NCBI RefSeq assembly: GCF_011742875.1
Contig: NZ_JAAQTL010000001.1
Coordinates: forward strand, 2,046,001 to 2,110,000
Direction: 5' to 3'
DNA from: Luteibacter yeojuensis
GTDB lineage: Bacteria > Pseudomonadota > Gammaproteobacteria > Xanthomonadales > Rhodanobacteraceae
Length of the DNA stretch: 64,000 nt
In this document: positions 23,245-35,910 of the stretch, one piece after another
Position numbering within the stretch: position 1 is the stretch's first letter
How the letters are laid out: the number at the start of each line of letters is the position of its first letter
Made by a program: the position numbers and the translations under genes
The notes under the pieces: generated by a model
What the model was told of the DNA's origin: nothing
The model's database searches: none
The model's input: the letters and a program-made list of their open reading frames with translations, nothing else

Positions 23245-23624
23245 CTCTCATCGTCCGCAGCGAAAGCCCCAACCCCGACCGCAGCACCGTGTGGCTCGAA
23301 GGCCGTCTCGATGCAGCGACCTACGCGGCGTTCGACGAGGCCTTGCGCGACGTCATCCCGCTCCTGGACAACGGCGGCACGCTGGTGGTCGACCTTTCGG
23401 GCCTGGAATACATCAGCAGCGCCGGACTGCGCAGCCTCGCCCAGCTACGCAAGCAACTGCACGACCGCGATGGCCGCACGCTTCTTCTCAACCCGCAACC
23501 GCAGGTGAAGAAGGTTTTCGACATCGTGAAGGCGGTACCGGTCGCGGAAGTGTTCGCCAGCGTGGGCGAACTCGACCAGTACCTGGATCACATGCAGCGG
23601 CAGATGACCGCGCCGGGTGGGTGA
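23241..23624 (+). CDS. STAS-domain anti-anti-sigma factor (RsbV/SpoIIAA-like)
   Basis: A 127-aa single STAS domain. The phosphorylation site lies in LEYISSAGLRSLAQL near residues 55-70, with a conserved Ser in the ISSAG motif. It is expected to be phosphorylated by the RsbW-like kinase and dephosphorylated by the RsbU-like phosphatase, completing a partner switch. It overlaps the kinase gene by 4 nt (ATGA). The last 15 residues extend past the usual STAS end. Confidence 0.9.
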   Translation: MTLIVRSESPNPDRSTVWLEGRLDAATYAAFDEALRDVIPLLDNGGTLVVDLSGLEYISSAGLRSLAQLRKQLHDRDGRTLLLNPQPQVKKVFDIVKAVPVAEVFASVGELDQYLDHMQRQMTAPGG

Positions 23625-23656
23625 AGCGCAAGGGACAGCGTTCTCCCAGGCGCTTT

Positions 23657-23732
23657 GTGTGGGAGCCGGCTACGCCGGCGATCCCGCGGCAGCGGGCACG
23701 CTCGCGAGCACCCATCGCCGCTGAAGCGGCTC
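23657..23732. repeat. REP/BIME-like repeat, copy C, truncated at its right end
   Basis: Begins TGTGGGAGCCGGCTACGCCG and continues through CATCGCCGCTGAAGCGGCTC, but the expected CCCACA tail is replaced by AAACAAGACC. Copy F (40651) has the same inner sequence with the complete tail. The replacement point coincides with the start of the integrase remnant. Confidence 0.8.
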
Positions 23733-23742
23733 AAACAAGACC

Positions 23743-23999
23743 TACATCCAGCAACGGCACGTCTACGATGGACAGTGCAAGGTGGCGGGCTTGAGCAATA
23801 TGCATGGACTGCGGCATCGGTATGCACAGCTGCGATATGAAACATTGACGGGATGGAAGTCACACCGGCAGCAGGTGGACCGGGCACGGCTCAACTCGAC
23901 CTATCACAGCGTCTGGCCGACCGACACGTCCGGCAGCAGATCAGCCATGAACTCCGGCACGAGCGGGTGAAGGTGACGACGGTCTATCTCGGAAGCTAA
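23743..23999 (+). pseudogene. Tyrosine recombinase (integrase) remnant, frameshifted
   Basis: Reading from TAC 23743 gives YIQQRHVYDGQCKVAGLSNM, then HGLRHRYAQLRYETLTGWKS, which contains the catalytic HxLRH box of phage-type integrases. At about 23860-23864 two extra bases (a CA duplication in TCACACCGG) shift the frame. The other frame then continues PAAGGP, QISHELRHERVKVT and TVYLGS before TAA 23997-23999, restoring the usual C-terminus with the catalytic Tyr in VYLG. Only about 85 residues remain, with the N-terminal part missing at the REP junction. It is a fossil of the element that probably brought the neighbouring island. Confidence 0.8.
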
Positions 24000-24077
24000 G
24001 TCGCACGCTGCGCAAGTACCTGGGGCGACACAGCCAAGGCACGCTGTCACCACCAGGCTCATCCAAGACGCGTGGGG

Positions 24078-26162
24078 CTACTTCTGCAGTAAGTCCTCCA
24101 GAAATTCCGACTCAGGTTTCACTGCTGACACATGCAGTTGGTCGCGGGCACGGGTGCAAGCCACGTACAGCAACTGGCGTTCGGTGTTATAGATTTCGGT
24201 CAGCTCAGCCTCGTCAGCAGCAGTGTCGATGCGCACCTGTGAAGGGATGATTTCATCATCGCAGGCCATGACCGCAACCACGCGGAATTCCATACCCTTG
24301 GCCAAGTGCATGGTGGTGATACTGACGAAGCCCTCTTCCGTTGCCATGTCCTTACCGAGCACACGCCCCTGCAAGCATGCGGCCTTGACTGCAGCCTGTG
24401 CGCGTGACAGTTCGCTGTCGGCTCGAACGAATACGCCGATTTCCTGCGGCAGCACACCGCTGGCACTGCATTGCTGCAACCATACACCGACGGCCTGGCT
24501 TTCCGCCTTTGCATCGGCGTAGCTGCAAATGGTCGGCTCCGGCCCGTTGAATACAGAAATTGTGCCCTTGCGGCTTTCGACATTTCCGTCCACATCGGAG
24601 ACCTCGGGGTCGAGAAGCCGGTCGGCCTGCGAGCGAATCTGGTGCGAGGTGCGGTAGTTGATATTGAGCGTGCGCGAACGGCCTCGCACATCCACGCCAA
24701 GAGATCTCCACGAGAACGGAGTCTGAAAGATGCGCTGGCCAAGATCGCCGGCAAAGAACAGGGCATTGGCGCGGTTGCCGGCGATCGCCGCAAGAAAGCG
24801 CAATTGCTGCACACCGATGTCCTGCGTCTCATCCACCACGATGTAGTCGAATACCGGATGCTTGCGCTTGGGCATGGCCTCCGCTAGCTTGGCGAACATC
24901 TCGGCCGCAGTGATCTTGCCGGCCTGCTTCAATTGCTCCTTCACATTGGCGAACACCTGCCAATACAAGGCGCGTTGTGCCTCCGGCAGGCGCGTCTTGC
25001 GGCCCAGCCGCTTGGCGTCGCGGTAAGCCTCCCAGCTTTCCACTTGCCAAGTGTCTACCACGTCTTCCCATTCGGACAGCACAAACGCGACGTTGGCTTT
25101 CAGGCCATCGGCCTGCATGGCAGCCGCCTTCAGCAGCGTGGAAATTTCATCACGGCTGGCGAATACCGGTTTGCCGAATTCCGCCGCATACAAGCGGATG
25201 CCAAGAGCATCCATGGCGGCCACGTCGATACGTTCGCCGAGCTTGGGAGTGTTCCAGATCAACCGATACAGATTGCCGCGCAAGGCATTGGCCAACGTAT
25301 CCGAAAACGTGGAAAGCAGAACGCGCGCATCTTCGTCCTGATGCGCCAGATGCACAGCCCGGTGCAAGGCAACCACGGTCTTGCCCGTGCCCGCCGAGCC
25401 AGACACACGCGCCGCGCCGTTGTAATGGCGCTCGACCAACTGACGCTGTGCCGGATGGAGGAATACCGTCCACTTGTCCCACGGGTATTCCAGGGCGCGG
25501 GCCAGTTCGTCCATATCGGACATGACGCGGAAGCGGCGTTGCGCGTCCGGGTGCTGGAATGGATCCGCCCCCTTGGCTGCCACTTCCGGCAACGCCGGCG
25601 CGCCGCCGGTCGCCAGTTCAAGCAGGGCTTCGGCCGCCTCACCGGGCAGGTGGTCAGCCAGTTCCAGCAGCGAATCCTCGTCGGCAGCCTTCACGTCGGC
25701 CAGCCACTCTTGCGGCACACCATAGGCCAGCAGTTGGGCGTCGCCATATCTTGCGAACAGTTTCGGCATCTGTTGCGTCGCCGGCCTGCCGTCCTCAACA
25801 TAATTCGGAACGAGGATCTCCTCGACACGCTCGCGGACCTCGACAAGCTGGGCTGCGCCGGTGGTCGGGTGCACTGCCAGCTTGCGCCGCTCGGCCCATT
25901 GATAGGCCTTGTCGTGGTGATCGACATAGCAGAGCAGCAGACTGCCAGCGGTCTTGTGGACGATCAGGCGAATATCGCGGCTGACACGCACCGACCAGAA
26001 GTTCGGGTCTTTGGCTCTATCGAGCTTGTGGAAGCTCATGCCGTTGCCGACAGGATCCATCTGCAAATCGAAGGCAGTGGTCTTTGCGGCCTTTTGTTCA
26101 TCACCTGTCAGGCGGGCAAGACTGGTGGTAAAGGTGTCGGCAATGCGGAATTCCATACTCAT
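24078..26162 (-). CDS. RelE/ParE-like toxin domain fused to a UvrD/Rep-type helicase
   Basis: A 694-aa protein with two parts. Residues about 1-95 have the RelE pattern (KLDRAKDPNFWSVRV, RDIRLIVHK, and the end motif YVDHHDKAYQWAERR). Residues about 225-694 are a superfamily 1 helicase: Walker A GSAGTGKT (255-262), VVDETQD (442-448), the NYRTSHQIR motif near 502, SITTMHLAKGMEF and VACTRARDQLHV near the C-terminus. The SF1 motifs suggest ATP-driven 3'-5' DNA translocation. Whether the RelE fold is an active RNase or a binding module is unknown. ATG overlaps the upstream stop as ATGA, so it is translated with the preceding gene and ends the island operon. Confidence 0.88.
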   Translation of the reverse strand: MSMEFRIADTFTTSLARLTGDEQKAAKTTAFDLQMDPVGNGMSFHKLDRAKDPNFWSVRVSRDIRLIVHKTAGSLLLCYVDHHDKAYQWAERRKLAVHPTTGAAQLVEVRERVEEILVPNYVEDGRPATQQMPKLFARYGDAQLLAYGVPQEWLADVKAADEDSLLELADHLPGEAAEALLELATGGAPALPEVAAKGADPFQHPDAQRRFRVMSDMDELARALEYPWDKWTVFLHPAQRQLVERHYNGAARVSGSAGTGKTVVALHRAVHLAHQDEDARVLLSTFSDTLANALRGNLYRLIWNTPKLGERIDVAAMDALGIRLYAAEFGKPVFASRDEISTLLKAAAMQADGLKANVAFVLSEWEDVVDTWQVESWEAYRDAKRLGRKTRLPEAQRALYWQVFANVKEQLKQAGKITAAEMFAKLAEAMPKRKHPVFDYIVVDETQDIGVQQLRFLAAIAGNRANALFFAGDLGQRIFQTPFSWRSLGVDVRGRSRTLNINYRTSHQIRSQADRLLDPEVSDVDGNVESRKGTISVFNGPEPTICSYADAKAESQAVGVWLQQCSASGVLPQEIGVFVRADSELSRAQAAVKAACLQGRVLGKDMATEEGFVSITTMHLAKGMEFRVVAVMACDDEIIPSQVRIDTAADEAELTEIYNTERQLLYVACTRARDQLHVSAVKPESEFLEDLLQK

Positions 26163-27148
26163 GCCTTCCTCTTCGGACCATCGCCGATAGTGGCCGATAT
26201 TCTTTGGGCGAGTTGGTTTTTCAATGCATCAATATCTTTCCACGCGATATGGTTGTATTGGCGCGTGTCGAAGTGAACATTGTTCAGCGCATCAAAACGG
26301 CAAGTGAAAATCACTGGCATATTGAGGCCATGTGCATAACCCGCCTCGTAATAGACCCCGCCGCGCGCACCGCTATCTCCTTGCGTGAAGTCCGCGACAA
26401 CGAAACGCGACCTCCTTATCTCCGCAATGATTTCGTCGTCAATTTTGTTGTTGTGATTCTTCTTATCTATCCGCATTGGCTCGTAGCCAGCATCTCGAAT
26501 GGCCGGGGCAATGCCTTTCTCATACGCTTCGCTCATAGACGGGTCGAACCACATGGCAACGAATGCTTGGCTTGATGCTGCACCGCTGCCATCTAGGGCT
26601 GCCAGTCGGGCATACCCAGGCGGCCTGAGCATCAGTTCATGAGTGTAGCTAACCTCGCCGAGAGTTCTCGGTTTCTCGACTCGATGCTCAATCCATTTCT
26701 CAGTATGGGCATATTCGGCGAGGGTAATCACCTCGGAAAGTTTGCGAGAGGCTGTCCATGCCATCAGTGCATTGCCGTCATCCGGCTTGCTTGCTTTTTC
26801 AGGCGCGCAAAACATTACGACAGTGCCCAGTAGCTCGCTCCTGCTTGCAAGATAGCGCAACAGGCCGTCTGCCCTTTCGTGGACGGCTGGGAAGCTCCAG
26901 CTCTTCAAGTCTTCAAGAGTTTCGCTGAAAATCTCCGGACGGATGACACCAAGCCGATGTTGCCCGACTAGCCAAGAGGTCAGAAGAACTTTTTCCTTGT
27001 CGTCCAGATTGGCAAGCATGGCGTTCGCCGTACCCGAGATGAAGAACTCTCCGCCGGCCCTCGGCGAATCAACGGCGACGCCATCACGCCCGCCCACATC
27101 AATAGGTATGGCCGTGGCTCCCCAAATCGGACAAGTAGTATTCACCAT
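26159..27148 (-). CDS. Protein with C-terminal nucleoside 2-deoxyribosyltransferase/TIR-like domain
   Basis: A 329-aa protein with ATG 27146-27148 sharing a base with the mod stop (TGATG). Residues about 193-329 resemble the Rossmann-like NDT/TIR group: QAFVAMWFDPSMSEAYEKGI (about 195-213), RRSRFVVADFTQGDSGARGG (about 245-264) and VYYEAGYAHGL, where Glu268 would be the catalytic acid. Related folds cleave N-glycosidic bonds of nucleosides or NAD. The N-terminal 190 residues are not recognised and contain a CPIW start and LxPPGY. In this setting an NAD- or nucleotide-depleting effector is plausible, but that is inference. Parts of the gene are less G+C-rich than the surrounding chromosome. Confidence 0.75.
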   Translation of the reverse strand: MVNTTCPIWGATAIPIDVGGRDGVAVDSPRAGGEFFISGTANAMLANLDDKEKVLLTSWLVGQHRLGVIRPEIFSETLEDLKSWSFPAVHERADGLLRYLASRSELLGTVVMFCAPEKASKPDDGNALMAWTASRKLSEVITLAEYAHTEKWIEHRVEKPRTLGEVSYTHELMLRPPGYARLAALDGSGAASSQAFVAMWFDPSMSEAYEKGIAPAIRDAGYEPMRIDKKNHNNKIDDEIIAEIRRSRFVVADFTQGDSGARGGVYYEAGYAHGLNMPVIFTCRFDALNNVHFDTRQYNHIAWKDIDALKNQLAQRISATIGDGPKRKA

Positions 27149-30075
27149 CACTGCACCTTAAACACCTTCATCACCTCATCCCCGAGGTGATTGATGACCT
27201 TCACCGCAAACCGGCCGTTGCTCGGTTTCGGGAAAGGGCGGGAGGTATCGGAATTGAGTGTCGACCAAGCGTCGGGGTCAACCTCAGCTTTGAGGGTTGT
27301 CTTCAGCGCCTTGTACGGGTCGTTCGCGCCGAGGAAGTAGGCATGGCGAACGAAGAAGGACTCCTCGTTGTAGTCAGTGTCCAGGAACCAGCAGGCTATG
27401 CCCTCTGCGTCGTCGCTGCGGACTTCGCCGGTGCTGGGATGGAACACGTCCACGCCGTTGATCTTGACCACCAGTTGCCCATCGGCAGGCACGTCGATGA
27501 CGTCGCGCTTGCCATCGTATCTACGGATGCTACGGCCTTGCGTATCCAGCACATCCACATCCGGCTCACCGAAGATCACGAACAGGTTGCCCTTGCCGGT
27601 GTTCTTCAGGTCTTCGGCCATGTGCAGGTCAGCGTTCATGCGAGCCTTGAGCACGTGGATGCGGCCGAGTTTGCTGAATTCGCTGGCCGGCGCGTCGTAG
27701 TTGAAGGCGCAGGCGATGAGTACGTCGAAGTTGGCATCGCCGGCTTCGCGGGCGGCATCGACCAAATCAGCTCGGGTGACTGTACCGAACTCAGGGCCGA
27801 CCAGAATACCTGCTCGTTTCACCTGTTCGTTTTCCAGATAGCGGCCTTCGGCGCAGATCAAGTCACCCGGCCACGGTTCCAGTGAGGTGAATTCGATCTT
27901 GTCGGCCTTATGCGCCTGCTGCACACCGGCGGTGCGCAGGTTGGCCAGGATCAGGCTGGCAAAGTCTTGGCCATATTCGGCCTGGGTTTCGGCCACGTGG
28001 TCGATCAGCTCATCTTCCTCGTCCACGCCCAGCACGCGGTGCGGGCTGAGGGATTCCACGGTGAAGGGGCCGGCCACGCGCACCTTCTTCCTGTCCTCGT
28101 AGGGCTTGTCATAGAGGAACTCGAACTCGGCCTTAGCGGCGATGGACGCGTCGATTTCCTGCTGGCGGGCGGTACGCTGCTGCCACCAGTCGGCGTGGAG
28201 CTTCTTGGCTTCCTCGCTCCACTTGACATCGGTTTCGCGCGGAATTTCCCATTCCTGCCACTTCTTGCCGAGCGCCTGGTTCAAATCTGCGCGCAGCGGC
28301 TCAAGTACGGCCTGGAACTTGTCCCAGATAACGTCGATCTCGGCATTGTTGGCGATGGATTTGAGGGTGATATGCGGCACGCGCTCATAAACGAAGCCGT
28401 GAGCGATGTTGTCGTAAGTGGATTGGCTGGACGGCGCGCTGCGGGTGATTTCGGCTTCCTTCAACTGGCCGTCGCAGGAGTCGGCCAGCAGGTAGAACGG
28501 GTAGCGCGCGCCCATGATGCGGGCGCGGGCCAGCGCCAGCGCGACGCGGCTGGTGTCGATAGTGATCCAGCGGCGGCCCCATTGTTCGGCGACATAAGCG
28601 GTGGTGCCGGAGCCGCAGGTTGGATCGAGCACTAGATCGCCCGGGTCGGAAGCGATCAGCATGCATCGCTGCACAATCCGCGTATCGGTTTGGACAACGT
28701 ACGTTCTACTTTCGCCAAATCCACCAGATCGAAGATCGGACCAAACCGTATTAAATGGCCTATATCTCGCTCCATCAAAATATGCTTTCCAACCAACAGA
28801 GTTGCCGACCTTGTACATTCGGTTAGATTTTGCGAGTCGAGTAAGGCCGATCTCCGTGGTCTGCCATCCATACTGACCAGGAGGTCTGTACGACACGCCT
28901 TGAAATGAGAAAGGAAACCTACTTGATGGACCACCTGTTTGGGAATAAGTGGGATAGATGCGAAGCACCCGCCCCTCAGGCAACGTGTCAAGCCGCATCT
29001 TCTGCTTGAGAGATAGATCTATTACTTTACCTTTATCTGTCTCTACACAAAGGTATCGTTCGTTTGGATTCTCAAAGACATCCGTGGGATTCAAAGCATT
29101 GCGGTACTTAACTTTATCCTTATCTCTCGCAAACCAGAGTATGAAGTCGTTTGTCGACGGCAGAAGCACTGATGACAAGGCGCTTGCCTTTGAAATTACA
29201 ATCTCTCGACAGAAATTCTCGTCTCCAAAAACTTCATCCATCAACGCGCGGACGCGATGGACATTCTCATCGCCAATCTGCACAAAGATCGACCCGGACT
29301 CCGTCAACAAGTCCCGCGCCACCATCAACCGATCGCGCAAATACGTCAGATACGAATGAATTCCGTCGCGCCAGGTATCGCGGAAGGCCTTCACCTGCTC
29401 CGGCTCGCGAGTGATGTGGTCGGCGTTGCCGTCCTTCACGTCGCGGCTGGTGGTTGACCATTGGAAGTTGCTGTTGAATTTGATGCCGTAGGGCGGATCG
29501 AAATAGATGCACTGCACCTTGCCGCGCAGCCCCTCGCGCTCAGCCAGAGAGGCCATCACTTGCAAGCTGTCGCCCAGGATCATGCGGTTCTGCCAGTGGC
29601 CTTCGTGCTGGTAGAACTCGGTACGATCCGCACCTTCGGGCAGGCCGTTGAAGTCGCCGAACAGGTCCAGTGTGTCCTGTTTCGGCGCTGCGGCCTCGCG
29701 CTGGGCTTCAGTCTGGCGTCGCAGATCGTCGATCAGCGCCTTGGGTTTGACCTTCTCCTGGATGTATAGCGGTGGCGCATTGACCACGAGGTCGGACCAG
29801 TCCTGCTGGTCCTTGCCGCGCCAGATGAGTTGCGGATCCAGGTCGCGATTGAGCCGCTGCTGGAATTCCGAGGACGTCTTGCCCGTGCCGTGCGGAGCGC
29901 ATAGTTCCTCCAGCCATTGCCGGTTGGCGCGCGGGTAGGCCACCTTCACCGGCGCCTGCTCATGCTGCTGCATCACCGACTGGTGTTCCACGGTCGGGAT
30001 GTTCTTGCGTTTGGCCTCGGTATGCGTGATCTGTTCGATACCCTTGCTGGGCATCTGTGTTTTCTTCGTTGCCAT
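27148..30075 (-). CDS. Type III-like site-specific adenine DNA methyltransferase (Mod)
   Basis: Modification and specificity subunit, 975 aa from ATG 30073-30075 (MATKKTQ, behind AAGGAA); an upstream start at 30117 is unlikely. Motif IV DPPYG (193-197) precedes the AdoMet motif I region DPTCGSG (484-490), the order of beta-class N6-adenine or N4-cytosine enzymes. The stretch between them, about 290-465, is the probable target-recognition domain and is much more A+T-rich than the rest of the gene. The product is longer than classical Mod (about 650 aa), with a C-terminal extension of about 400 residues. Spacing to res is 1 nt, and the next gene overlaps the stop codon. Confidence 0.9.
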   Translation of the reverse strand: MATKKTQMPSKGIEQITHTEAKRKNIPTVEHQSVMQQHEQAPVKVAYPRANRQWLEELCAPHGTGKTSSEFQQRLNRDLDPQLIWRGKDQQDWSDLVVNAPPLYIQEKVKPKALIDDLRRQTEAQREAAAPKQDTLDLFGDFNGLPEGADRTEFYQHEGHWQNRMILGDSLQVMASLAEREGLRGKVQCIYFDPPYGIKFNSNFQWSTTSRDVKDGNADHITREPEQVKAFRDTWRDGIHSYLTYLRDRLMVARDLLTESGSIFVQIGDENVHRVRALMDEVFGDENFCREIVISKASALSSVLLPSTNDFILWFARDKDKVKYRNALNPTDVFENPNERYLCVETDKGKVIDLSLKQKMRLDTLPEGRVLRIYPTYSQTGGPSSRFPFSFQGVSYRPPGQYGWQTTEIGLTRLAKSNRMYKVGNSVGWKAYFDGARYRPFNTVWSDLRSGGFGESRTYVVQTDTRIVQRCMLIASDPGDLVLDPTCGSGTTAYVAEQWGRRWITIDTSRVALALARARIMGARYPFYLLADSCDGQLKEAEITRSAPSSQSTYDNIAHGFVYERVPHITLKSIANNAEIDVIWDKFQAVLEPLRADLNQALGKKWQEWEIPRETDVKWSEEAKKLHADWWQQRTARQQEIDASIAAKAEFEFLYDKPYEDRKKVRVAGPFTVESLSPHRVLGVDEEDELIDHVAETQAEYGQDFASLILANLRTAGVQQAHKADKIEFTSLEPWPGDLICAEGRYLENEQVKRAGILVGPEFGTVTRADLVDAAREAGDANFDVLIACAFNYDAPASEFSKLGRIHVLKARMNADLHMAEDLKNTGKGNLFVIFGEPDVDVLDTQGRSIRRYDGKRDVIDVPADGQLVVKINGVDVFHPSTGEVRSDDAEGIACWFLDTDYNEESFFVRHAYFLGANDPYKALKTTLKAEVDPDAWSTLNSDTSRPFPKPSNGRFAVKVINHLGDEVMKVFKVQ

Positions 30076-30076
30076 C

Positions 30077-33000
30077 TCAGTGTTCCTTGTTTCCCGGCGC
30101 GGGCACAGCCGATTCAATCATTTGGTTGAACTTTGCTTCGACCTCTTTGGCAAAGTCTTCCTGCATTTCGTACACATCGCCAAACTCGGCAAAGGCCCAG
30201 CGGCCGTGCGTGCCGAGGTGATTCACGCCGGGAATCCAGTAGGTGTCCATGGTGGACTTTTTTTCTTTCGCATCCTCGCGCCGGTAGCCCTTGATCTCGA
30301 CGATCAGGTTCAGCGGGTCGTTCTTGCCGTGACCATCGTCCACTTGCACGATGAAGTCTGGGATGTAGATGCGGTTGGCCGAGCCGAAGCGGTATGGCAC
30401 TTCCAGGCCGAGGTTGTGGTTCTTGGTATAGGCCAGCACACTGGGGTGCGACTCGGCGACGCGGCAGAATTCGGATTCCCAGCCGCTGTCCAGGATCACC
30501 CAGTTGACTTGGTTCTTGGGCGGCGGCCCAAGGGTTTCCCAACGGTCTTCGCGAGAGGTGTTGAAGCGCACGTGCGCGGTGCTGCCGGTGGGGTTGAATG
30601 GGTCGAGGATGGCCTTGACCTGCTGGCCTTTCTCTAGTTCGCGCTTGACGATGCCGCGAGTAATCTTCTGGCAGGCCAGGTCGGCCAGTTCACGGTGCAT
30701 CAACTGCGCCGGATAGGTGCCACCCTTACATTCCAGGCACTCCTCCAGCCACTCACGCACGATGCGCTTAAGCTGGCCGAACAGGGCGATCGGTGCATCC
30801 TGGCCTTGGTCGCGCCAGTGCTCGAACAGCAGGTGCTTGGTCAGCTCCATCAGCAGCGTGGACTGGCGCACGTCGCCTAGGTACTTGAGGTTCAGTTCCA
30901 CCGCTTCGCCGATAATGCCGGCGTTGCGGGTTTCCGTGGGGCCGACTTGCTCTGGCGTCAATGTCAGATGATCGTCGGTGCCAAAGGCGGCTTCCAGCCT
31001 TTCCTCCGGCAGTTCGACACGATAGCCCTGCACGCGCGGAAATCGGATTTCCTGAGAGTCGCGTTCCGGGCGCAGTGCCTTGACGGTGACGGTTTCGCGC
31101 GGCTTGGGCGGGGTGGCAACTACCGGCTTGGCGGTGAAGTCGAAGGGAATGCCGAACACGTCAGCATATTCCACGTCGAACAATCCCTGCTCGTTCAATT
31201 CATAGGACTGGCGGCGCAGAGCTCGGCCAATCACCTGTTCGCAAAGCAACTGGGTCCCGAACGCACGCACACCGAGTACGTGGGTAACGGTATTGGCATC
31301 CCAGCCCTCGGTGAGCATGGACACCGACACGACGCACCGGATTTGCTCGCCCAGGCGGCCCTGCTTGCCAACGGTGTTCATCACTTCGCGCAGCAATTCG
31401 CTGTCACTCAGGTTCTCGGCTTGTCTGCGGTCGCCAGTGCGCTCGATGATTTCGCGCTTGAAACGCTCGATCTCGTCGGCGGCCATACCCCGGAAGTTGT
31501 CGTCCAGCGCCTCGCCGGATTCGAGCTGTTCGCTGTCGATCAGCAGGGTATTCGGGCGCGCCAGCGGCTCACCGTGTTCGTCGTAATTGCGGAACAGTTC
31601 CAGTCGGCCAGCCTGGTAGCTGACCTTGCCATCGTCATTACGACGATCAAAGCCGGAAATGTAATCGAACACCAGCTTGGAGGTGGCGGTGTTGTTGCAC
31701 ACCACGATGAAGCACGGCGGCACCTTGATGCCGGCCTGCTTCCAAGCTTCGTAGGTTTTGAGGTAGTGGCCGTAAAGCGCGTCCAGCGCGCTTTTCAGCA
31801 ATTGCGGAATATCTTCTGGATCGGCCTGTGCACCCTTGCCGCGCCCCTTTTTGGGCATCTTCTTGCCTATGTGCTTCCATAGATCGCGGAACATCGGCAT
31901 GTCGAAGTCGCCGGGCAGGTTCTGTGCAATCGGCACACGCGGCAACTTGACGATGCCGCACTCGATGGCATCCATCAACGAGAAGTCACTCATCGTCCAC
32001 GGGAACAAGGTGCCTTCCACGTAGCCGGAACCGGCCAGGAAGAATGGCGTGGCCGAGAGGTCGATGACCTGTTGCACGCCCAGCTTGCGGTTCACGGCTT
32101 CGAGGCCGGAAATCCACAGGCGCGCGGCTTCGTTCTCGTCCTTGACGTGTTCCTTGGCGGCTTTGAGGTCATCGCCGGTCAGGGGGTTGCCCTTGTCGTC
32201 GATGAAATCGTCGTCGGAAGCGGGCTTTTCACGATAGCAATGGTGCGCCTCGTCGTTGATGGCGAGAATGTTCTTCAGCCCCATCAATTCCGGCATGACC
32301 CGCTGGAGCATCTGCCCCTCGGTTTCCAGCGTGTCCAGCTCGCTGCCGGTGCGGCCTTGCAGCAAGCGACGGCCGCCCTTGGACAATTCCATGCGTTCGC
32401 GCAGCTTGAAGGCGTGGTAGTTGGTGATGACAATCTTGGCCTTGTCCAGATCCGCCAGCATGTCGCGGGGCACGATCTCGCGGCTGGCGTAATAGCTGTC
32501 CGCATCATTGGGCAGCAGCACGCGCAGGCGATCCTTGATGGTCAGGCCAGGGGCGACCAGCAGGAAGCCTCGGGTGAATTTCTTGCTCTGCGGATGGCGC
32601 ACGGCATTGACCGTCTGCCAAGCGATGAGCATGGCCATGACTGTGGTCTTTCCTGCGCCGGTGGCCAGCTTCAGTGCCAGGCGCATCAGGCCGGGGTTGG
32701 CATCGTTGCTGACTCTCTTCAGGTGGTCGAGAAAGCGTTCCCCACTTTTGCCGAGCTGCGGGACGACCTCGGTCAGCCAGATCGCGGTTTCGGCCGCTTC
32801 TACCTGGCAGAAGAAGGGGCGCACCCCAGCGAACTTGTGGTTGCGCCAGTGCTCCAGCAGACGGGCCGTTTCGGGGGTGACACGCCACTGCGTCGGCGGC
32901 AAGCGACGCCACGCATCGACCTCGCGCCGCACCGAATTGATCAGTTCAGAGTGGCGGTAACGCTGCCCGTCGTCAGCCAGGTTCTCGACTTCATCCAGCG

Positions 33001-33181
33001 CCAGAGTAGCCTGTTCGCCGCGGTGCCGGCGGGGCTTTGGAATCGGACTGATGAAGCTGGACGCTCGGCGTGACTCGACGATTTGCTGCGTAGGTTGTCC
33101 GCTGTCGTCCAGCTCCCAGTGCCGCGACGGGTAGTCGTAAGGCGAATTGAGGATTGGCTGGTTGAAAAACTGGTCACTCAC
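30077..33181 (-). CDS. Type III-like restriction subunit (Res): SF2 helicase with PD-(D/E)XK nuclease
   Basis: A 1034-aa protein with GTG start (33179-33181) overlapping the stop of the small upstream gene. Helicase motifs are Walker A ATGAGKTT (173-180), NDEAHH (309-314), DLSATPFF and GRALRRQS (motif VI). Near the C-terminus IPDFIV and LIVEIKGY (about 942-966) fit a PD-(D/E)XK nuclease core. With Mod it should cut unmodified DNA after ATP-dependent communication between sites. The region MPKKGRGKGAQADPE is a basic insertion. Family resemblance is to res/DEAD restriction subunits of type III systems. Head-to-tail site needs and target sequence cannot be read. Confidence 0.9.
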   Translation of the reverse strand: MSDQFFNQPILNSPYDYPSRHWELDDSGQPTQQIVESRRASSFISPIPKPRRHRGEQATLALDEVENLADDGQRYRHSELINSVRREVDAWRRLPPTQWRVTPETARLLEHWRNHKFAGVRPFFCQVEAAETAIWLTEVVPQLGKSGERFLDHLKRVSNDANPGLMRLALKLATGAGKTTVMAMLIAWQTVNAVRHPQSKKFTRGFLLVAPGLTIKDRLRVLLPNDADSYYASREIVPRDMLADLDKAKIVITNYHAFKLRERMELSKGGRRLLQGRTGSELDTLETEGQMLQRVMPELMGLKNILAINDEAHHCYREKPASDDDFIDDKGNPLTGDDLKAAKEHVKDENEAARLWISGLEAVNRKLGVQQVIDLSATPFFLAGSGYVEGTLFPWTMSDFSLMDAIECGIVKLPRVPIAQNLPGDFDMPMFRDLWKHIGKKMPKKGRGKGAQADPEDIPQLLKSALDALYGHYLKTYEAWKQAGIKVPPCFIVVCNNTATSKLVFDYISGFDRRNDDGKVSYQAGRLELFRNYDEHGEPLARPNTLLIDSEQLESGEALDDNFRGMAADEIERFKREIIERTGDRRQAENLSDSELLREVMNTVGKQGRLGEQIRCVVSVSMLTEGWDANTVTHVLGVRAFGTQLLCEQVIGRALRRQSYELNEQGLFDVEYADVFGIPFDFTAKPVVATPPKPRETVTVKALRPERDSQEIRFPRVQGYRVELPEERLEAAFGTDDHLTLTPEQVGPTETRNAGIIGEAVELNLKYLGDVRQSTLLMELTKHLLFEHWRDQGQDAPIALFGQLKRIVREWLEECLECKGGTYPAQLMHRELADLACQKITRGIVKRELEKGQQVKAILDPFNPTGSTAHVRFNTSREDRWETLGPPPKNQVNWVILDSGWESEFCRVAESHPSVLAYTKNHNLGLEVPYRFGSANRIYIPDFIVQVDDGHGKNDPLNLIVEIKGYRREDAKEKKSTMDTYWIPGVNHLGTHGRWAFAEFGDVYEMQEDFAKEVEAKFNQMIESAVPAPGNKEH

Positions 33182-33318
33182 TTCTTTGCCCCCTGATTTT
33201 TGGGCTGTTTCGGGGCCGGTCGAAGCACAAGGCTCCGATCTGCAGCCGTGCCTCCTGGCCGAATGACTTGCTTGAGGTCATCACCCAACAAGCGGCTGAT
33301 GTTGTCGATCAGTTCCAT
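33178..33318 (-). CDS. Small protein, 46 aa, between fic and res
   Basis: ATG 33316-33318 is preceded by AGGGGAA and follows the fic stop after 10 nt. Its TGA overlaps the GTG start of res (GTGA), a strong sign of translational coupling. The product begins MELIDNISRLLGDDLKQVIR and ends with a Pro/Lys/Gln-rich tail (PAPKQPKNQGAKK). No known family was recognised. It could be a small regulator or a structural partner of Res or Fic. The reading frame, ribosome site and overlaps are observed; a function is not claimed. Confidence 0.7.
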   Translation of the reverse strand: MELIDNISRLLGDDLKQVIRPGGTAADRSLVLRPAPKQPKNQGAKK

Positions 33319-33328
33319 CGTGTTCCCC

Positions 33329-34375
33329 TTAGGCCCGCTTGGCCCATTTCGCCCCTCGCCCCTTGCCCATTGACTCGATCAACCCCTCTGATTTCATCGC
33401 CCGCAGCACCAGCCGCACCATGTCCCTGCTTACGCCTGGGCAGGCTTCCTCGATCTCGGAAATCGAGAACGGCAGGGTGCGCCCCAGAACTTCCGTCCGC
33501 ACTCGGTCGCCTTTGCTGCCACGTCCCCGTTCGATGGTGCCGACACGCTCCTCGAACTCACGGTAGGCCCGTAGCAAGGCACCCCAGAAGTAGTCTAGCC
33601 AGGGCTTTACGTCGTGCTGCCCCTCGTGCCAGCCCCGCGAGCTGGCTTCCAGCGTCTCGTAATAGCCTTCCTTGGTTTCCTCGAAGATGCGTTCCAAACT
33701 GATGTAGCGCCCCACGGCATAGTCGAAGTGGTAGAGCAGCAGCAGAGTCAGCAAGCGGGACATGCGACCGTTGCCGTCGGGGAAGGGGTGAATGCACAGG
33801 AAATCGAGCATCGCCAGCGGCACTAGTACGAGGGGGTCGGCCAGGTGCTGATCCAGCGCGGTGGCGTAACGCCCGGCCAGATCGGTCATAGCCATGGGTG
33901 TGAGGTGCGCAGCGACGGGCTGGAAGCGTAGACGTGACGTGCCGTCCGGGTGACGCTCGATGATGTCGTTATTGGTAGCCTTCCAGCGCCCGCCCGCCTG
34001 CGGCATATAGCGGTACAGCAGGGTGTGGAGTTGCAGCACTACGCCCTCGCTGAAGGGCATGTGCGCGGCCGATTCGTAGATCAGCGCCAGGGCGTCACGG
34101 TAGCCGGCGATCTCCTGTTCGGAACGGCTCTTTGGCGTTGCGTTGCGGATGACCAGAGACTTCAACCGCGAGGGCGCTACGACAACACCTTCCAGCCGGT
34201 TGGACGACTCGGTGGATTCCACCACCGCGATCTGGCGTAGCCCCTTGAGGGCTTCGGGCGACTGTGCGGTGTAGAGTTGCTGCTTGCCCTGGTACTCCCC
34301 CAGCGTGCGCAATGTGGCCGCCTGGGTGCCATCAAAGCGGAGCGCGGCAAGGTACTCGGGTGTGAGCGAGTGCAT
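33329..34375 (-). CDS. Fic-domain protein (AMPylase-type) with C-terminal winged helix
   Basis: Fic proteins usually transfer AMP to a Ser, Thr or Tyr of a target. The 348-aa product has the complete catalytic motif HPFPDGNGR (196-204), so it is expected to be active. Residues 58-63 read SNRLEG, matching the N-terminal inhibitory motif (S/T)xxxE(G/N) of class II Fic proteins, which would restrain activity. The C-terminal 90 residues look like a winged helix (FSISEIEEACPGVSRDMVRLV), suggesting DNA binding. It is the first gene of the island operon and has operator-like repeats over its promoter. Fic genes are known companions of restriction-modification islands. Confidence 0.92.
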   Translation of the reverse strand: MHSLTPEYLAALRFDGTQAATLRTLGEYQGKQQLYTAQSPEALKGLRQIAVVESTESSNRLEGVVVAPSRLKSLVIRNATPKSRSEQEIAGYRDALALIYESAAHMPFSEGVVLQLHTLLYRYMPQAGGRWKATNNDIIERHPDGTSRLRFQPVAAHLTPMAMTDLAGRYATALDQHLADPLVLVPLAMLDFLCIHPFPDGNGRMSRLLTLLLLYHFDYAVGRYISLERIFEETKEGYYETLEASSRGWHEGQHDVKPWLDYFWGALLRAYREFEERVGTIERGRGSKGDRVRTEVLGRTLPFSISEIEEACPGVSRDMVRLVLRAMKSEGLIESMGKGRGAKWAKRA

Positions 34376-34397
34376 GAAATGTAAGCCCGGGCTATCT

Positions 34398-34591
34398 AAA
34401 CGGGGTAATCATAGCCATTAAATGGGGTATTGTCTCTAAAAATACCTCATTAATAGGGTCTAACTACCCCATTTTCCGAACACTGGACTGGCCGTGGGGC
34501 TGGCATGGGCGACCAAAAGAGAACGAGCGACATGAAATAAAGAGGCAATCAAGCAAGAATTACCCTATTTAATCCATTGTTTACCCCGTTC
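34398..34591. repeat. Cluster of TACCCCATTT-type sites (operator-like)
   Basis: Copies seen: AAACGGGGTA (34398-34407), AAATGGGGTA (34420-34429), AATAGGGT (34453-34460), its inverse TACCCCATTT (34465-34474), TACCCTATTT (34561-34570) and TACCCCGTTC (34582-34591). The second and fourth form a perfect 10-bp inverted pair. The first two overlap the predicted fic promoter. The density in 200 bp and the promoter overlap suggest binding sites for a regulator, perhaps the winged-helix end of Fic. The rest of the gap to ychF (34592-34818) shows no gene or clear signal. Confidence 0.6.
34408..34436 (-). promoter_or_regulatory. Putative promoter of the fic-res-mod operon
   Basis: Minus strand GAGACA (34431-34436), 17-nt spacer, TATGAT (34408-34413), then about 30 nt to the fic ATG. 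It sits in a locally A+T-rich 60-bp segment. One TACCCCATTT site fills the spacer and another touches the downstream edge of the -10. Confidence 0.6.
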
Positions 34592-34818
34592 CCAGCGCCC
34601 AGCCTAGGACAAAGGCGAATGGCAAGGGAAGGGCACTCAAGGGGGCACCAGCCTTACCCAGAAAAGGAAAAGGTCGCCCCCTGTCCGTTCGTTCCGCAAC
34701 ATCCGCCCGACTCTGCAAGGACAACGGGCTGGCATGGTCACGCCGCGCTTTCATCTTTGCCGCGGGCAGACGCCACACTGCATCCTCGAAGTCGAACTCG
34801 TCCCACCAGCAAAAATCG

Positions 34819-35910
34819 TCAAACGTTGAAGCGGAAATGCAGCACGTCGCCTTCCTTGACGAGGTAATCCTTGCCTTCCAGGCGGAGACGGCCGGCTTCC
34901 TTCGCGCCCTGCTCGCCCTTGAACTTGATGTAGTCGTCGTACGCCACCGTTTCGGCGCGGATGAAGCCGCGCTCGAAGTCGGTGTGGATGACGCCCGCGG
35001 CCTGCGGCGCCGTGGAACCGGCACGAACCTGCCACGCGCGCACTTCCTGCACGCCGGCGGTGAAGTAGGTCTGCAGGCCAAGCAGACGGTAGCCGGCGCG
35101 GATGACGCGGTTGAGGCCCGGCTCGTCGAAACCGAGGTCCTTCAGGAACTCGTCGCGGTCGGCGTCTTCGAGCTGCGCGAGCTCTTCCTCGATGGCGGCG
35201 CACACCGGCACCACTTCCGCGCCCTCTTCCACCGCGCGGGCACGTACGGCGTCGAGGTGCGGGTTGTTCTCGAAACCGTCTTCCGCCACGTTGGCGATGT
35301 ACATGATCGGCTTCAGCGTGATGAGGAACATGTCGCGGACGAGTGCCTTCTCTTCCGCGTCGAGCCCGGCGGTGCGCGCCGACTTGCCCTGGTCGAGCAC
35401 CTTGGCGAGCTTCTCCAGCACCGGCTTGCGGGCGAGCGCGTCCTTGTCGTTGGCCTTGGCCGCACGCGTGGCGCGATCCAGTGCCTTCAGCACGGACTCC
35501 AGGTCGGCCAGGGCCAGCTCGGTGTCGATGGTTTCGATGTCGGCGATCGGGTCGACCTTGTTCGCCACGTGGATGACGTTGCCGTCCTCGAAGCAACGCA
35601 CGACGTGCGCGATGGCGTCGGTCTCGCGGATGTGCGCGAGGAACTTGTTGCCCAGCCCTTCGCCCTTCGACGCGCCGGCGACGAGACCCGCGATGTCGAC
35701 GAATTCCATGGTGGTGGGAATGATGCGCTGCGGCTTCACGATGGCCGCGAGCTCGTTCAGGCGCGGATCGGGCACCGGCACGATGCCGGTGTTCGGCTCG
35801 ATCGTGCAGAACGGGAAGTTGGCGGCGGCGATGCCGGCCTTGGTCAGCGCGTTGAACAGGGTGGACTTGCCGACGTTAGGCAAGCCGACGATGCCGCATT
35901 TGATGCCCAT
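34819..35910 (-). CDS. ychF: Redox-regulated ATPase/GTP-binding protein YchF
   Basis: YchF (OLA1 family) is an Obg-related P-loop NTPase that prefers ATP, binds ribosomes and affects stress responses. The 363-aa product has G1 GLPNVGKST near residues 8-16, a [16 protein letters not shown] switch region, the coiled insertion and a C-terminal TGS domain ending in [11 protein letters not shown], all standard for the family. It is 31 nt downstream of pth, the usual pairing. It is the first chromosomal core gene to the right of the island. Confidence 0.97.

Follow-up and report, generated by a model that had tools for sequence, protein, structure and literature searches.

We analyzed a 64,000-nucleotide (nt) stretch of the Luteibacter yeojuensis genome (positions 2,046,001 to 2,110,000 of contig NZ_JAAQTL010000001.1), hereafter called the window, for an operon of six defense-type genes. 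In reading order these encode a Fic protein, a product of 46 amino acids (aa), a restriction subunit (Res) and a DNA methyltransferase (Mod) that resemble those of type III systems, an NDT/TIR-like protein, and a RelE-UvrD fusion; coordinates are given in Table 1. The initial annotation, made from the sequence alone, had described six open reading frames (ORFs) in this order on one strand, and the description was borne out. The small ORF follows fic after 10 nt and overlaps res by GTGA, mod follows res after 1 nt, the NDT/TIR gene overlaps mod by TGATG, and RelE-UvrD overlaps the NDT/TIR gene by ATGA. If RelE-UvrD starts at Met3, as do most of 58 aligned RelE-UvrD sequences, a 2-nt gap replaces the ATGA overlap. 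The genes form one tightly packed unit, and no named system with exactly this set was found, as the initial annotation had supposed.

Table 1. Features of the operon and its surroundings (positions in the window)
Feature	Position	Strand	Remarks
Whole inserted island	23628..34815	none	directly 3' of ychF; about 75 bp instead in two relatives of the genus
RelE-UvrD, third chassis gene	24078..26162	-	ArmD-like, 694 aa
UvrD-type superfamily 1 helicase of RelE-UvrD	24081..25463	-	residues 234-694; Walker A Lys261, DETQD 444-448
RelE-superfamily domain of RelE-UvrD	25839..26162	-	residues 1-108
Slot B cargo: NDT/TIR-like gene	26159..27151	-	330 aa
NDT/TIR-fold domain	26162..26581	-	residues 191-330; invariant Glu269 in VYYEAG
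mod, DNA methyltransferase	27148..30075	-	type III-like, 975 aa; DPPY, then DPTCGSG
Presumed target-recognition region of Mod, swapped	28636..29235	-	about residues 281-480; from identity per 40 residues
res, superfamily 2 helicase and C-terminal PD-(D/E)XK	30077..33181	-	BPTD_3080 family; DEAH, QVIGRALR, PDF...EIK
46-aa ORF	33178..33318	-	poorly conserved, possibly a remnant
fic, Fic protein	33329..34375	-	HPFPDGNGR; SNRLEG inhibitory-type motif; weak C-terminal helix-turn-helix match
Candidate operator before fic	34400..34590	-	four GGGGTA/TACCCC words; from word counts in the window
ychF	34819-35910		right neighbor of the operon, with its end at 34819; identified by Pfam

The domain assignments made initially also held, by profile for Fic, ResIII/BPTD_3080, the methyltransferase, and UvrD, and weakly by sequence for the NDT/TIR and RelE domains, the former with support from its fold. 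Res scored 36.2 bits against Pfam ResIII (cut-off 22.5) and 1332.5 bits against the NCBIfam model for BPTD_3080 (NF046055; cut-off 800), which places it in that family. It has the superfamily 2 helicase and PD-(D/E)XK motifs of a type III Res, at residues 310 (DEAH), 649 (QVIGRALR), and 941 (PDF...EIK); a sequence search of the PDB found no solved structural relative, and a PADLOC REase_III score of only 17 bits counts against a type III Res. Mod matched Pfam N6_N4_Mtase and, at 1880 bits, the PADLOC MTase_III profile. Its DPPY motif (residue 193) precedes the S-adenosylmethionine motif DPTCGSG (residue 484), the order of type III Mod proteins, and a Mod profile matched the type III Mod chains of 6k0w (E 1.9e-22) and 4zcf (E 1.7e-19) as well as Mbo45V (7dsu). 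The pair thus resembles EcoP15I in its Mod and in the motifs of its Res, but differs from it in that res precedes mod, a third gene follows mod, and Mod has 975 aa compared with 644 for the EcoP15I Mod chain.

RelE-UvrD matched the UvrD family (PF00580) and is ArmD-like, being 34% identical over 711 columns to an ArmD-like protein from an E. coli plasmid, a comparator distinct from the published ArmD sequence itself. Weak HigB-like matches to the RelE part were obtained for 34 of 38 relatives (best E 7.6e-5), with 17.1 bits for the window's protein against a cut-off of 27. His45, Arg65, His82, His83, and Tyr87 of this domain are invariant in 51 aligned sequences, that of the window included, and the predicted order of strands and helices fits the RelE fold. 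Sequence searches of the PDB with the RelE domain gave chance-level matches only, and a structure search with the whole RelE-UvrD model gave matches that cover mainly residues 184-694, largely past the RelE domain. The NDT/TIR-like protein scored 24 bits against PF05014 (cut-off 28.8), matched one TIR effector in PADLOC at 38 bits, and gave only chance-level matches in a PDB sequence search. Structure comparison of residues 191-330 and the conserved Glu place it in the NDT/DNPH1/TIR superfamily. It shares the fold and the Glu with effectors of that superfamily such as the SPARTA TIR protein, but differs in a distinctive N-terminal region that spans about 190 residues and in a sequence match below the Pfam cut-off. 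The retron-Eco1 effector is a further example of this superfamily.

To determine which genes stay together, we examined 94 other loci around relatives of Mod, consisting of the best-scoring 80 of at least 574 and 14 others. The NDT/TIR gene had no match in any of the 94 (E 1e-4), so that the window is the only one of 95 loci with this gene beside mod. For RelE-UvrD, 89 loci including the window were counted, after exclusion of partial or distant Mod relatives (L071, L072, L073, L074, L081) and of L159, a duplicate. RelE-UvrD follows mod in 62 of the 80 eligible loci, those with either 4 kb covered after mod or a RelE-UvrD match; a stricter set with at least 8 kb covered downstream gives 50 of 63. 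The absence of the NDT/TIR gene from the other loci indicates that it is exchangeable, and the regular presence of RelE-UvrD (50/63) that it goes with res and mod. The initial annotation had named homologous islands that regularly lack the last two genes as evidence against its six-gene unit; such islands are the rule for NDT/TIR and not for RelE-UvrD.

The association was also found when RelE-UvrD was the starting point. Of 299 genomes of the phylum, 11, counting the window's own, gave a long match to RelE-UvrD with at least 49% identity. Ten of these have a Mod relative upstream of the match on that contig, at distances from a few bases to 2.7 kb, and in the remaining genome (G004) the contig starts at the RelE-UvrD match. 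We also surveyed the context of 25 RelE-UvrD loci, made up of 16 genome loci that are part of those listed and 9 of the 20 plasmid matches listed, with 55 plasmid records matching. At 48% identity or more, Mod is present in 12 of 14 loci and Res in 11 as well, the exceptions being L249, with only 3.4 kb covered upstream, and L201 (Qipengyuania). At 31-37% identity, all 11 loci carry an ArmC-like helicase and none carries a Res or Mod of the window's type. The ArmC and ArmB labels here derive from gene order and PADLOC (DruE-like, 320 bits; DrmMI-like, 300 bits), not from the sequences of PMC12458937. The Qipengyuania locus (L201:7787-19757) presents a third context, in which RelE-UvrD follows a gene for a RecB-like nuclease and a small gene, and precedes one for a DUF4011 protein that matches PDC-S37 and Hhe profiles.

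The positions between the conserved genes vary in content. Between mod and RelE-UvrD (slot B) the gap is below 150 nt, and the slot in effect empty, in 9 of 62 loci, and ranges up to 7.2 kb. ORFs of at least 90 aa occupy it in 49 loci and fall into 32 groups by shared families; small ones among them may be spurious, since ORFs were called mechanically. Profile matches of the cargo include SIR2 (520 bits) with HerA (861), IetA (247) with IetS (110), LmuA (402) with LmuB (549), PDC-S06 (633), PDC-M32A (460), HEC-07 (621), and HNH (99); GmrSD, OLD-like AAA_15, Peptidase_M78 with DUF4411, and HEPN proteins were also found. PADLOC, applied to 17 slot B groups, six of them chosen after a Pfam hint, matched 9 at 90 bits or more. 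In slot A, between res and mod, 29 of 87 loci have a gap below 150 nt and 55 a gap of at least 250 nt, the contents including SoFic-like Fic proteins (a cluster of 10 loci), Bro-N, deaminase-ATPase, NYN, PIN, and GmrSD_N proteins. Eight small ORFs of 64-103 aa, two of them related, fill slot A of L134, and several look like toxin-antitoxin or nucleotidyltransferase genes by eye. Both slots are closed in six loci. They are closed as well on a plasmid of Pseudomonas avellanae, in which mod shares a TAATG overlap with RelE-UvrD.

Cargo turns over between close relatives. The RelE-UvrD proteins of L082 (Brachymonas) and L083 (Castellaniella) are 96% and 94% identical to that of the window, with Fic and Res at 89-95%, yet slot B of both loci holds a different, two-gene set. 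When pairs of loci were grouped by RelE-UvrD identity, the slot B state was common to 23 of 908 pairs at 0.6-0.7, 9 of 134 at 0.7-0.8, 1 of 5 at 0.8-0.9, and 1 of 3 above 0.9. The slot A state was common more often (166 of 908 pairs at 0.6-0.7); closed slots account for many of these cases. Several slots also contain remnants of the ends of the flanking genes. In L150, mod is followed by a 228-aa cargo gene, a remnant of the RelE-UvrD start, a remnant of the mod end, a second cargo resembling GmrSD by eye, and the full RelE-UvrD; the gap and cargo tallies count this slot only to the remnant, its true length being about 3.1 kb. Remnants of the mod end lie inside slot B of L123 and L068, a remnant of the RelE-UvrD start inside slot B of L103, and a remnant of the mod start in slot A of L145, the only one of 55 loci tested for it. 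The remainder of the 89 loci, about 1.58 Mb of sequence with slot B making up about 0.10 Mb, yielded no further remnant of a mod end or RelE-UvrD start, L137 having one weak RelE-like match apart from these. Candidate remnants in L088 and L117 were rejected as genuine genes, as was the start of the full-length RelE-UvrD in L150, and those in L084 and L118 as genuine Res ends. Recombination through the ends of the chassis genes would be expected to leave such remnants, and those in these five loci suggest that cargo is exchanged through the ends of mod and rel.

The Mod protein itself carries a variable segment. Residues 281-480 have an identity of 0.10-0.47 per 40-residue block to L082 and L083, compared with 0.75-1.00 elsewhere, and are low again (0.20-0.45) in comparison with the P. 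avellanae plasmid. This region is swapped among the relatives, and we presume it to function in target recognition.

Taken together, these data are best explained by a modular restriction-modification operon, in which res of the BPTD_3080 family, the type III-like mod, and RelE-UvrD make up a chassis that has two exchange points for cargo, and the NDT/TIR gene is a separate second layer of defense; we put the probability of this explanation at roughly 0.7. Mod would methylate a sequence dictated by its swappable recognition region, and Res would attack DNA that lacks the mark by means of its helicase and PD-(D/E)XK nuclease, as in type III systems, so that the pair most likely marks self and attacks unmarked DNA. 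RelE-UvrD, like ArmD of ARMADA, would be a motor needed for full interference. By analogy with ArmD and with UvrD motors, it most likely works on DNA that Res engages, perhaps on the ends or the stalled DNA that Res produces, with the RelE domain acting as a nuclease or a nucleic-acid clamp. The junction between mod and RelE-UvrD would serve as a cassette slot into which cargo is recombined through the conserved 3' end of mod and 5' end of rel. The cargo of the window is predicted to be a single-gene N-glycosidase of NDT/TIR fold, which most likely hydrolyzes a nucleotide or NAD upon infection. Fic would occupy a further variable position, perhaps as a regulator of the operon. The sequence itself shows the gene layout, the conservation of the chassis genes together, the turnover of cargo, the swap in Mod, the predicted folds, and the scars; the biochemical activities, the succession of steps, and the way in which cargo is exchanged are inferred, with homology as the support for what Mod, Res, RelE-UvrD, and NDT/TIR would do.

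Several observations weigh against this explanation. The 80 best-scoring loci are biased toward close relatives, having been drawn from at least 574, and RelE-UvrD is absent from 13 of the 63 well-covered loci and from the distant relatives L073 and L074. Remnants occur in only five loci, and the NDT/TIR gene beside mod is a single case. Many cargo groups are based on the mechanically called ORFs, a few slots (L068, L084) include ORFs on the minus strand, and PADLOC gave no match of 90 bits or more for 8 of the 17 groups. The recognition region is also not the sole variable stretch, because Mod has a second dip (0.38 at residues 41-80 against the P. avellanae plasmid) and Res dips locally as well (0.47 at residues 41-80 against L082).

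An alternative is that the cargo is functionally coupled to its hosts, the operon being a sensor with interchangeable effectors that are switched on when Res-Mod translocates, cuts, or is inhibited. The window's cargo does overlap both of its neighbors, 53 of 62 loci have at least 150 nt separating mod from RelE-UvrD, and part of the slot B cargo is effector-like (HEPN, SIR2-HerA, NDT/TIR). However, cargo in other loci matches whole, self-sufficient systems (IetAS, LmuAB, SIR2-HerA), the 9 empty slots and the minus-strand ORFs do not fit such coupling, and an NDT homologue stands alone elsewhere. A lone NDT gene lies between nuoF and nuoG in L075, and 2 of 369 genomes of the class, the window's included, have the gene at E 1e-30; it can thus travel as a single gene. 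Of the 7997 candidates scored in a profile search, 6098 were homologues at E 1e-10, and NDT was also found in 15 viral-contig loci. Ten of the 299 phylum genomes have a match (E 1e-8), of which only the window's own shares a contig with a strong Mod match; in G185 the NDT match and a Mod fragment are on separate contigs and the ORFs around its NDT gene (L078) are unlike Mod, and four weaker NDT matches are in G026, G092, G177, and G229. On a Bradyrhizobium plasmid (L194), a ThiF adenylyltransferase gene and then several small genes precede an NDT homologue. We consider coupling between cargo and chassis unlikely. Equally doubtful is a bolder proposal, according to which Res-Mod-RelE-UvrD is a distinct restriction class that keeps the mod-rel junction as a recombination dock, the restriction complex or its RelE-UvrD motor activates whichever effector occupies it, and RelE-UvrD is a trigger module common to ARMADA and to the third system represented by the Qipengyuania locus.

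RelE-UvrD could also be an abortive-infection toxin, in which UvrD senses DNA damage and RelE then cleaves mRNA, and the initial annotation had similarly proposed that the last two genes form an abortive layer. The RelE-superfamily domain, in which certain His, Arg, and Tyr residues do not vary among close relatives, is consistent with such a role, but it matches RelE families only weakly by sequence, and His45 and His82, together with His69, are missing from the E. coli ArmD-like protein. The accessible part of the report on ARMADA type II (PMC12458937) describes a system that needs all four of its genes, in which a Walker A mutation of ArmD abolishes protection while infected cells remain viable; it mentions no mutant of the RelE domain. 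The window's operon shares with ARMADA type II the ArmD-like RelE-UvrD but differs in having Res and Mod, with no YprA-like ArmC, BrxHII-like ArmA, or PglX-like ArmB among the six proteins profiled. Because RelE-UvrD resembles a required part of a non-abortive system, an abortive role is not our best guess; this weakens the earlier proposal for RelE-UvrD, and we regard the toxin as improbable. The NDT/TIR cargo, by contrast, may have an abortive or toxic role.

Passive clustering, in which RelE-UvrD would be a frequent passenger in an ordinary defense island of unrelated modules, is somewhat less probable again. The embedding of defense genes in other systems is already established, reported cases being DarTG2 inside a type I system, with the term 'guilt-by-embedding' (PMC12255303), PrrC within type I loci (PMC12629846), and HEC and PDC candidate defenses embedded in other systems (PMC12988326). 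The slot B cargo, some of which matches HEC-07, PDC-S06, and PDC-M32A profiles, resembles these and Hma-embedded candidates in lying among restriction genes. The host here differs in being a type III-like system of the BPTD_3080 family that has two slots and scars from chassis ends, features for which, as for the third chassis gene, we found no report. RelE-UvrD is moreover constant where cargo varies, its identity tracks that of the host system, and mod and rel are less than 150 nt apart in nine loci, all of which argue against a passenger. The reading of the initial annotation, that the six genes are one functional unit, agrees with their tight spacing in the window but is highly improbable and was rejected as a general rule for this sample, as the full set occurs in none of the 94 other loci.

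Our literature searches found no papers on BPTD_3080 and no report of this arrangement or of RelE-UvrD as a constant BPTD_3080 partner; a 2024 preprint by Payne on embedded defenses, which lay outside their coverage, may describe parts of it. If the modular operon is correct, the slot becomes a discovery tool, genes between a BPTD_3080-type mod and RelE-UvrD being prime anti-phage candidates, and the scars offer a testable mechanism for the swapping of defense genes within operons. One motor, RelE-UvrD, would then serve at least two unrelated restriction-type systems, so that its job could be approached directly in a three-gene core simple enough for the purpose.

The Fic protein matches PF02661 and has a weak helix-turn-helix match at its C-terminus (13.5 bits). 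It resembles SoFic in its Fic motif and inhibitory-type motif and scores 122 bits against the PADLOC SoFic profile, but differs in failing the NCBIfam SoFic equivalog cut-off (42.3 compared with 550 bits). A close homologue lies immediately upstream of res only in L082 and L083; a weak match is upstream of res in L126, others are kilobases upstream in L102 and L128, and in ten loci a protein of the Fic family is encoded between res and mod instead (one cluster, with a Pfam Fic match for L085). Four of the nine copies of GGGGTA/TACCCC in the window fall in the 260 bases before fic, with three copies in the corresponding span of L082 and two in that of L083. Because of these four words and the weak helix-turn-helix match, Fic may regulate its own operon. 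The 46-aa ORF is only 46-47% identical to its counterparts in the closest relatives, where fic and res are 89-95% identical, and may be vestigial; its start may resemble the N-terminus of PLD-type helicases.

The operon has a GC content of 0.53-0.63 in 1-kb bins, compared with 0.63-0.72 in the flanks, and lies on an inserted island. Matches to window positions 23627 and 34816 are only about 75 bp apart in L164 and L165, which belong to the same genus, and the insert can thus be placed at about 23628-34815. No terminal direct repeats of at least 8 nt were found between the end stretches 23591-23720 and 34741-34860, and no integrase was found by profiles, which covered the six operon proteins but not the short non-coding stretches at either end of the island. 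In 12 of 22 same-genus ychF loci, each with 1.5 kb covered, the island's left flank lies within 1.5 kb of ychF. In 10 same-genus genomes examined over about 18 kb each (nine of the ten other loci and one of the 12), the distance is 1.1-11.5 kb, and none of the six operon proteins was matched in between (E 1e-10). The longer of these stretches (L217, L218, L220) contain ORFs of 1574-1937 aa, and in L221 (174-2026), also of this genus, ychF is directly followed by two overlapping genes, one AAA ATPase-like and the other of 198 aa, possibly a further defense pair by eye. Upstream of the operon, ychF is present in the window and also in L082 (2839-3933) and L083 (4503-5591), the closest relatives, and the three possibly share an insertion site. 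The distance from ychF to fic is about 0.1 kb in L083 and 1.8 kb in L082, and the ychF proteins are 68% identical. Among the other 102 loci, many with little flank, ychF was found near the operon in none except for a weak 33% match in L135.

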